Source: Treponema sp. (GTDB lineage: Bacteria > Spirochaetota > Spirochaetia > Treponematales > Breznakiellaceae). Taken from it: DNA of 32,036 nt. Each line of letters opens with the position of its first letter. Within the stretch, counting starts at the first letter, position 1. Positions 1 through 1,314 of this stretch are shown in pieces. Under the pieces are notes generated by a model that made no database searches, was not told where the DNA came from, and saw only the letters and a program-made list of their open reading frames with translations. The stretch lies in the NCBI GenBank assembly GCA_031268385.1, contig JAIRXH010000044.1:1-32036 (forward strand), written 5' to 3'. The translations under genes were made by a program, and so were the position numbers.

Positions 1-92
1 ACCCGTACCGGATTATTGGCGGTTATATAATCGTCTATGCAATCCGGCAGCATGATTGTCTGCCCCCGGTTTTCCCCGTGTATGAATTCCAT
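1..92 (-). CDS. IS1182-family transposase, N-terminal fragment (truncated by window edge)
   Basis: Reverse complement from ATG at 92..90 reads MEFIHGENRGQTIMLPDCIDDYITANNPVR, open to the window edge; resembles the conserved IS1182/DUF772 N-terminus (FI.G..R.Q..LLP..LDDY...NPVR). GGAGGAG Shine-Dalgarno just upstream. Confidence 0.78.
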   Translation of the reverse strand, partial: MEFIHGENRGQTIMLPDCIDDYITANNPVR

Positions 93-220: not shown

Positions 221-270
221 CTTGTTCCAAAACCCGGTTGGTGCGCAAACTTTGTTTGCGATGGAACAAG
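221..270. repeat. Nested inverted repeat: outer cttgttcca/tggaacaag (221-229/262-270), inner cgcaaac/gtttgcg (244-250/254-260)
   Basis: Perfect complementarity read directly. Confidence 0.85.
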
Positions 271-366
271 ATCAGCAAACAAAAAGTTCGTGCTACAGGT
301 GAGGTTTGCGGTAAATTCTTTCCAAAACGGGAATTGCCGGTAACCACCCATAGTTTCCTCCTCCCG

Positions 367-630
367 GTTTTCCGGGAAAACATTTTGTTTTCCATGGAAA
401 ACGCCATGATTTCCAGAGAAAAGATTTTGGTTTCCCTGGAAAAGGTTTTAGTTTCCGTGGAAAATGCCATGGTTTCCCTGGAAACCGCCATGGTTTCCCT
501 GGAAAAGATTCCGGTTTCCCTGGAAAAGATTTTGGTTTCCCTGGAAAAGATTTTGGTTTCCGTGGAAAACGCCATGATTTCCAGAGAAAAGATTCCGGTT
601 TCCCTGGAAACCGCCGCGTTTTCCCTGGCT
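367..630. repeat. 21-bp tandem repeat array, 12 units plus partial unit, each with a TTTCC-n-GGAAA-like palindromic core
   Basis: Units such as gtttccctggaaaagattttg; translated in one frame gives VFRENIL/FSMENAM/ISREKIL/VSLEKVL/VSVENAM/VSLETAM/VSLEKIP/VSLEKIL/VSLEKIL/VSVENAM/ISREKIP/VSLETAA. Confidence 0.95.
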
Positions 631-647
631 TTTACCACAGCCGCCCC

Positions 648-738
648 GGAGTTTTACGGCATCCAAAGCCCGCGCCGCCCGCACCCCCCGCGTAACCGCC
701 GCAGTGCCGAGATCGCCTGGAGTTTCGCGGCATCCAAA
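648..738. repeat. Direct repeat ggagttttacggcatccaaa (648-667) / ggagtttcgcggcatccaaa (719-738)
   Basis: 18 of 20 positions identical by eye. Confidence 0.85.
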
Positions 739-781
739 CTCCGCGCAGCTTGCAAACTCCGCTTTGACGCCGCGAAACTCC
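719..781. repeat. Inverted repeat ggagtttcgcggc (719-731) / gccgcgaaactcc (769-781)
   Basis: 13-bp perfect arms. Confidence 0.88.
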
Positions 782-784
782 CCA

Positions 785-815
785 GCCGAAGGCGAAGCGG
801 AGCTTCGCCTTCGGC
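785..815. repeat. Hairpin gccgaaggcgaagc-gga-gcttcgccttcggc
   Basis: 14-bp perfect stem, 3-nt loop. Confidence 0.93.
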
Positions 816-840
816 CGTTGACCTCTCTCCCCAAAAGCGG

Positions 841-904
841 TATCATACTTTTGCGGCGCTGATTTGTCCGCGTTCGAATACATCGGCGCTTCCATAGTAT
901 GATA
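841..904. repeat. Inverted repeat tatcatact/agtatgata enclosing a degenerate hairpin at 856-890
   Basis: 9-bp perfect outer arms; the inner 35 nt match 1164-1198 at 26 of 35 positions. Confidence 0.8.
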
Positions 905-908
905 TTGG

Positions 909-943
909 ACTTGTGCAACAACCCGGTTGGTTGTTGCACAAGT
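909..943. repeat. Hairpin acttgtgcaacaacc-cggtt-ggttgttgcacaagt
   Basis: 15-bp perfect stem, 5-nt loop. Confidence 0.95.
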
Positions 944-1002
944 TTCGCGGATTTGACGAATTTCTTGCGGAAAGCCGCCATATCTGCTGTTTTTTAGTGG
1001 AA

Positions 1003-1154
1003 GTTGGGGCTGTCCAGGAAGGTGGTGCGCAAACTGCGTTTGCGACTTCCCGGACAGCCCTTGCATGTGCTCCCGTTTCGTTGAAACGGTGCGCAAATGC
1101 CGCATCAAGGAAGCTGTCCGAACAAGTTTTTCAAACTTTTCGGACAGCCCCAAC
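1003..1154. repeat. Compound inverted repeat: hairpins 1007-1060 and 1113-1148, small hairpin 1073-1089, and an alternative 13-bp long-range pairing 1003-1015/1142-1154
   Basis: gggctgtcc (1007-1015) pairs with ggacagccc (1052-1060); gttggggctgtcc (1003-1015) also pairs with ggacagccccaac (1142-1154); gctgtccgaa (1113-1122) pairs with ttcggacagc (1139-1148); ccgtttc-gtt-gaaacgg at 1073-1089. Confidence 0.9.
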
Positions 1155-1162
1155 TCTAGGGA

Positions 1163-1198
1163 AGCACTGATTTATTCGAATGCGAATAAATCAGTGCT
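1163..1198. repeat. Hairpin agcactgatttattcg-aatg-cgaataaatcagtgct
   Basis: 16-bp perfect stem, 4-nt loop. Confidence 0.95.
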
Positions 1199-1209
1199 AC
1201 TTTACCGTA

Positions 1210-1245
1210 GTTTTTCGCAGTTTTCCGCAGGAAAACGAGAAAAAC
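1210..1245. repeat. Imperfect hairpin gtttttcgcagttttcc-gca-ggaaaacgagaaaaac
   Basis: 7-bp perfect inner stem (1220-1226/1230-1236) plus imperfect outer stem. Confidence 0.7.
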
Positions 1246-1247
1246 CA

Positions 1248-1290
1248 TAGGGTAACGCTGATTAGCCACAAGTTAATCAGCGTTACCCTA
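1248..1290. repeat. Hairpin tagggtaacgctgatta-gccacaagt-taatcagcgttacccta, 24 nt upstream of the PPIase start
   Basis: 17-bp perfect stem, 9-nt loop. Confidence 0.95.
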
Positions 1291-1314
1291 GTATTGTTTG
1301 CGAGGTGGGTGTTT

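Follow-up and report, generated by a model that had tools for sequence, protein, structure and literature searches.

Palindromes in front of a SurA-like gene of Treponema: a probable mosaic of hairpin-built, MITE-like mini-transposons

The palindromes that crowd about 1.1 kb of a Treponema contig very probably represent a mosaic of non-autonomous, hairpin-built, MITE-like mini-transposons, with an IS1182-family element on one side and the leader of a SurA-like gene on the other. These mini-transposons would have landed beside and inside one another at this leader. An IS5-type transposase would mobilize one of them, the D element, in trans, and deletion between direct copies of its TIR would leave solo hairpins that still end in TIRs, in the manner of a solo LTR. 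Template switching within the hairpins during replication would keep their arms complementary while the sequence drifts.

The window, i.e., the whole stretch of 32,036 nucleotides that was analyzed, corresponds to contig C1 of a metagenome-assembled genome (MAG) of 2.86 Mb in 207 contigs, with a completeness of 85%, whose source we take to be the termite gut, as for the MAG series to which it belongs. Copy numbers in the MAG were derived from searches and from a 199-kb sample of other contigs. The modules follow one another in the order IS1182 end, segment B with M1, 21-bp array, M2, promoter, solo D-type hairpin, E, C, D, ribosome-binding site, and gene, as given below with strands for the features that have one.

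1–92, minus strand: 5′ end of an IS1182-family transposase gene (start codon 92–90), truncated by the contig end; the repeat extends to about 167
173–366: segment B, present a second time in contig C142, again beside this IS end and this array
218–273: M1 hairpin repeat, related to the E left hairpin, whose tip holds the 18-bp palindrome GCGCAAACTTTGTTTGCG; at least 8 genomic copies
367–630: 21-bp tandem array of the dodecamer palindrome TTTCCNNGGAAA
645–702: degenerate half copy of M2 (direct repeat 645–702/716–773)
716–815: M2 double-hairpin repeat, GGAGTTT..AAACTCC and then GCCGAAGGCGAAGC..GCTTCGCCTTCGGC; often clustered
818–846, plus strand: sigma-70-type promoter TTGACC-17-TATCAT of the 1315 gene, from a consensus scan; conserved in the sister loci L031 and L032
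847–900: decayed solo left-type D-family hairpin in reverse orientation (GGAAGCGCCGATGTATTCG..); module G, which cross-matches the D left hairpin
907–1001: E element, left hairpin (907–944) and middle hairpin; 88–91% copies in contigs C135 and C197, full copies with ANT duplications
1002–1155: C element, three hairpins, TIR AGTTGGGGCTGTCC/GGACAGCCCCAACT, inverted repeat I13; about 12 genomic copies (83–98%)
1156–1159: target-site duplication CTAG left of D
1160–1287: D element, 128 bp, TIR GGAAGCACTGATT/GGTAACGCTGATT, three hairpins (left 1163–1198, middle 1210–1245, right 1251–1287); about 30 matches (81–98%)
1288–1291: target-site duplication CTAG right of D
1302–1308, plus strand: ribosome-binding site GAGGTGG, read from the sequence; region conserved in L031 and L032
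1315–2838, plus strand: SurA/PpiD-like peptidyl-prolyl isomerase gene (Pfam SurA_N_3 and Rotamase), in whose leader the insertions sit

Orthologues of the gene at 1315–2838 are 81–82% identical, and all relatives found were in Treponema MAGs. Two open frames upstream, 238–897 and 448–981, showed no protein family and one sub-threshold match only in a profile search; both cross hairpins and the array and were dropped as genes. At the left end, positions 1–167 have further copies at the ends of contigs C148, C34, and C160. The C160 copy matched the NCBIfam model NF033551 (IS1182) at 9.6e-21, a partial match under the full-length cut-off, and also matched PF05598 in Pfam. This copy (C160:5555–5707, L007) directly adjoins an M2-type hairpin, GGAGTTTTCGC..GCGAAAACTCC, and, judged from it, hairpins may be targets of the IS1182-family element.

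An earlier sequence-only reading had described 221–1290 as packed with consecutive palindromes, and these were confirmed at the coordinates given. The inverted repeats at 719–781, 785–815, 841–904, 909–943, 1007–1060, 1113–1148, 1163–1198, and 1248–1290 were found again, with perfect stems of 16/16 bp at 1163–1198 and 17/17 bp at 1248–1290. The repeat at 221–270 was recovered as a 12-bp pair (218–229/262–273) and the 21-bp palindrome array at 367–630 in 10 registers, while the short repeats at 1073–1089 and 1210–1245 were seen in the sequence and both form in the RNA fold. In the shuffle control that the same reading had proposed, 100 dinucleotide shuffles did not reproduce the hairpin density of 200–1300: this interval contains 8 non-overlapping perfect-stem hairpins (at least 9 bp) compared to 0.18 on average and never more than 2 per shuffle, and its longest stem is 17 bp compared to 11 in the shuffles. 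Furthermore, 37 hairpins with a stem of at least 11 bp and a loop of at most 15 were present in the 199-kb sample of the MAG versus 3 in 47 kb of related-genome loci, indicating that the whole MAG is hairpin-rich and that the studied site is a dense spot.

The palindromes had also been called mostly unrelated in sequence, which turned out to be too strong. Those at 841–904 and 1163–1198 are of the same type (D left hairpin), one TIR is common to 1163–1198 and 1248–1290, and those at 221–270 and 909–943 belong to one type (M1/E). A genome-wide search for each hairpin module, as had been suggested, found every module except the promoter elsewhere in the MAG, segment B plus the array having one further copy only, in C142. 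There, C142:11032–11290 is 95% identical to 173–432 and carries an additional palindromic insertion of about 30 bp. This dispersal, the target-site duplications of D and E, and the IS1182-family transposase gene start at 1–92 support the proposal of a graveyard of small hairpin-type mobile repeats beside an IS.

Comparison of its copies showed D to be a 128-bp three-hairpin element, of which the TIRs and the 4-bp YTAR duplications match IS5-type insertion sequences. A pattern search gave 130 D TIR half-sites versus none for the reversed control pattern. Full copies measure 128–144 bp, mostly starting with GGAAGCACTGATT and ending with GTTACC; among the 13 full copies in the fetched loci, nine have identical 4-bp flanks and four have no perfect duplication. 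Five different tetramers serve as duplications (CTAG, CTAA, CTAT, CCAG, and TTAG, most of them YTAR), the same on both sides of a given copy. In other genera of the family, the better copies are 78–88% alike, keep the three hairpins, and have matching CTAG or CTAA flanks; copies with duplications in these genera are L115, L116, L118, L119, L122, L138, and L139.

In related genomes, L193 and L201 have TIRs like GGWARCRCTGAWTWAA on either end, and L194, L195, L197, L198, L202, and L203 have one such end each. The IS5 copies compared with D are broken or partial: L201 is a 1253-bp IS copy with both TIRs enclosing a broken IS5 transposase, L193 is shorter and has both ends, and in L194 an IS5 protein above the NCBIfam NF033581 cut-off lies beside a D-like end. 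YTAR flanks these relatives at both ends of L201 and L193 and at one end of L202, the left and right YTAR of L201 being in inverted rather than direct orientation to each other, so that this IS copy shows no duplication. Since both TIRs and YTAR duplications match, an IS5-type transposase most likely mobilized D in trans. A profile search for PF01609 in the MAG itself found none, and an IS5-type transposase matching D was found in other genomes of the family, with none in the 85% complete MAG. Short-read assemblies often lose multicopy IS; given this and the incompleteness of the MAG, the missing transposase is weak evidence. D has the properties of a MITE (no coding capacity, less than 600 bp, and multicopy, with about 30 matches plus solos) and those of an IS5-related MITE (TIRs common to IS5-type elements and a 4-bp target duplication of the YTAR type). 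Exact searches of IMG/VR with the D middle hairpin and the E right hairpin gave no match and thus no sign of phage carriage, and a distant blastn search of a plasmid collection gave no match to the region.

E forms a family of its own, built on the three-hairpin plan of D but with other TIRs and a 3-bp ANT duplication. Such an ANT duplication is typical of the ISL2 group. The E copies that are intact at both ends run from GGACTTG to CAACTCT, and all nine of them are flanked by ATT, AAT, or AGT on both sides; copies with ANT duplications are L208, L209, L213, L215, L219–L222, and L038 (AGT/AGT). The left flank of the E element in the window is ATT (904–906), which fits the ANT target. The E right hairpin alone occurs 48 times in the MAG, 40 of these being exact to the pattern. 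E ends were scanned in PF05598 loci only, with one stray match (L177) and no IS found. In contig C17, E is inserted in the spacer of a D element, and the D sequence resumes on either side.

In the window, the C element replaces the expected E right hairpin and is bounded by AGTTG and CAACT, whereas L038 has an ordinary E right hairpin at this junction. C and E have the outer bases AGASTTG in common. Clear target duplications for C were not found among the copies compared, and the flanks of the E–C composite in the window differ (ATT on the left versus AGT on the right). Another E–C composite, at C197:10378–10614 (the end of L023/L039/L083), carries C reversed relative to the window, which would mean two or more joinings of C to E, or an inversion of C. 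A near-perfect palindrome of about 310–330 bp with the arrangement E–C–E′ lies at the very end of contig C131 (7997–8308, L084/L005). Because it coincides with the contig end, it is not counted here as a natural 330-bp mega-palindrome; it may be a genuine inverted duplication or have been created by the assembly.

Both ends of D and E are palindromic, so that each element has four TIR occurrences. D ends also occur alone as palindromes of 37–42 bp, and several of these are hybrids with one outer end from the left TIR and the other from the right (L099, L102, L108, and L112); L222 is a hybrid-end solo hairpin of E. Some listed solos are full copies truncated by a contig end. We infer, with good support from these copies, that solo hairpins arise by deletion between direct TIR copies; recombination or slippage that joined two such copies would give hybrid ends. 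In a few solos the ends are unmixed and the duplications match (e.g., TTAG/TTAG in L079), which would be compatible with direct movement or with later rewriting of an arm. It is conceivable, though unlikely, that at least two families with different transposases (YTAR and ANT targets) adopted hairpin termini independently and that a single 37–42 bp palindrome, being a full pair of transposon ends, moves alone, possibly folded single-stranded. If so, few known mobile elements would be as small as these self-moving palindromes, and the treponemes of termite guts would offer a natural laboratory for hairpin-in-hairpin evolution.

The hairpin arms also appear to change together. Among 13 E left hairpins, 90% of the pair cells are standard and 17 cells are changed on both sides; the covariation is 0.206 compared to 0.103 in a shuffle control that is weak with so few related sequences (n = 13). 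For example, L027 has a quasi-palindrome, GGACTTGTTTAGTAACCCGGTTGGTTACT and then GGCTAACCTTCGGTTAGCTTGCAAGTC, and L215 has the perfect hairpin GGACTTGCAAGCTAACCTTCGGTTAGCTTGCAAGTC; the 5′ arm in L215 looks like one rewritten with the 3′ arm as template. Template switching is a documented source of multi-base compensating changes in stems (PMC8794818). Since the arms co-vary and at least one apparent template-switch rewriting is present, covariation here is not by itself evidence of RNA function. The suggestion of a cruciform or recombination hotspot stood in part: palindrome-mediated deletion is suggested by the solo and hybrid hairpins, and template switching by the rewritten arms, but this describes the elements genome-wide and not the site at 221–1290.

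Target-site duplications support the mobility of D and E; M1, M2, and the array are counted here as repeats only. The 18-bp palindrome GCGCAAACTNNGTTTGCG occurs in the tips of both M1 and C hairpin 1, near-identical in the latter and missing from the C copies L025 and L083, suggesting that hairpins gain hairpins at their tips. M2 has more than 35 genomic matches with compensating arm changes. It forms clusters of 2–5, often close to contig ends (L066, L067, L069, L070, L072, and L073 in C40, C75, C35, C54, C12, and C149), and its second hairpin is in places swapped for unrelated hairpins (GCCCAAAAGCC.. and GCTGTCCGCC..) past the same CCAG boundary. The core and period of the 21-bp array recur in two other genera. 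Of 150 family genomes, 3 have it, always with this dodecamer, an exact 21-bp period, unrelated 9-bp spacers, and two arrays per genome (C1, at 367–630 of the window, and C142 in its own genome; L231 5513–5671, L232 4899–5141, L233 5850–5924, and L234 5823–5981). Its frames are open on both strands and its coding potential is ambiguous; the third base of TCC and GAA is kept in nearly all array units of the window, which points to a constraint on the DNA. It could be a helically phased protein-binding array.

The loci L031 and L032 of sister species share with the window the start region and the promoter (TTGACC and TATCAT or TATTAT, 17 nt apart), and they are without the roughly 430 bp of elements between promoter and gene. 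The insertions would have stretched the distance from the –10 box to the ATG from about 35 nt, as in L032, to 468 nt in the window, leaving a highly folded leader: 853–1330 folds at –223 kcal/mol with z = –13.9. The modules at 847–1291 are likely transcribed as a long folded mRNA leader, and the gene is probably still expressed because the promoter and the ribosome-binding site are intact, perhaps with altered mRNA stability or translation.

Because YTAR contains TAA/TAG, a D-type element that inserts right at a stop codon restores it, which would be a simple means of persistence in gene-dense genomes. At about 9 of roughly 40 D and solo sites, a small count in which each site was tested on two sides without correction, the flanking TAR is precisely the stop of an open frame of 250 codons or more, compared to 3.9% of the YTAR sites in the 199-kb sample. 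This excess can be explained by selection against insertion within genes, for which the count is likewise uncorrected, without any preference.

Could the region instead be one structured RNA, i.e., a riboswitch, leader, or sRNA selected for its fold, as the sequence-only reading had also offered? The very stable fold, the compensating stem changes, and the position between a conserved promoter and a start codon are what such an RNA would show. However, no Rfam match was obtained at gathering or relaxed thresholds, the modules move independently and are found separately at tens of unrelated sites, the sister species have the same promoter and gene without them, and arm rewriting can account for the covariation, so that a single RNA is very improbable. 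Spread as REP/REPIN-type repeats by a RAYT (Y1, HUH) transposase would fit palindromes in tens of copies, M2 clusters that resemble REP clusters, and the one RAYT-like Y1_Tnp gene in the MAG (C180:1727–2062, L113). The flank of this gene, however, has one D half-site and no match to M2, E, or C, and D and E have TIRs and target-site duplications, unlike REPINs; this explanation is very unlikely for the hairpins.

Chromosomal integrons are known in other Treponema (PMC3607928), and M2 is a clustered, imperfect inverted repeat of about 100 bp with variable arms, as attC-like cassette recombination sites might be. Yet no integron integrase scored above the cut-off (TIGR02249, in the 85% complete MAG), only general tyrosine recombinases matched, as in all control genomes, and on inspection M2 is without RYYYAAC/GTTRRRY ends, which makes attC sites barely credible. 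It is also highly improbable that the palindromes arose without transposition, by in-place replication errors (template switching or inverted duplication) or short-read misassembly. Arm rewriting was observed, many copies lie at contig ends, and the terminal palindrome of C131 has the typical shape of an artefact; but the same sequences have matching duplications at unrelated sites and in other genera, the D element of the window has unique flanks and an intact CTAG pair, and the promoter and gene are collinear with the sister species. Collectively, a mosaic of mini-transposons remains the preferred reading.

Compared to known systems, these elements are familiar in kind, being MITE-like and related to IS5. 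D resembles IS5-family MITEs (IS5 subgroup, YTAR target) in being short and non-coding, with IS5-type TIRs, a 4-bp YTAR duplication, and tens of copies, and differs from them in that each terminus is a full hairpin, giving four TIR copies, with a conserved middle hairpin and abundant solo and hybrid hairpins of 37–42 bp. Like REP/REPIN sequences, the elements are dispersed intergenic palindromes in tens of copies that fold in mRNA, but they have target-site duplications and TIRs, and linkage to a RAYT was not seen. Repetitive hairpin-forming and double-hairpin elements of mitochondria are likewise small, mobile-looking, hairpin-built, and invasive of intergenic regions (PMC2800124); compared by description only, the present elements differ in their bacterial host and in their DDE-transposon-type ends and duplications. 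The mechanism recalls solo LTRs, in which deletion between direct terminal-repeat copies leaves one terminal unit on site, except that the unit remaining here is a 37–42 bp palindrome with an inverted TIR pair. Hairpins maintained by template switching also acquire multi-base compensating changes that perfect a stem in one event (PMC8794818), but those described here are in mobile repeats rather than RNA genes and were recognized by comparing copies rather than by reconstructing ancestry. A literature search, with most subscription papers outside its coverage, found nothing direct on such repeats in termite-gut Treponema. As far as these tools show, the form is new: the elements end in hairpins, hold four TIR copies, and also occur as solo or hybrid hairpins, unrelated families with one plan are nested, and hairpin-ended elements are spread across several genera.

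These results define hairpin-ended mini-transposon families across several genera of termite-gut treponemes and offer a concrete route from a full element to a solo hairpin. They also provide a warning that compensating stem changes in dispersed bacterial repeats may stem from template switching in palindromes, and reading stem covariation in such repeats as RNA function needs a locus-level control. Finally, the locus represents a natural insertion experiment: three species conserve the promoter and start codon, and one of them has about 430 nt of hairpins.
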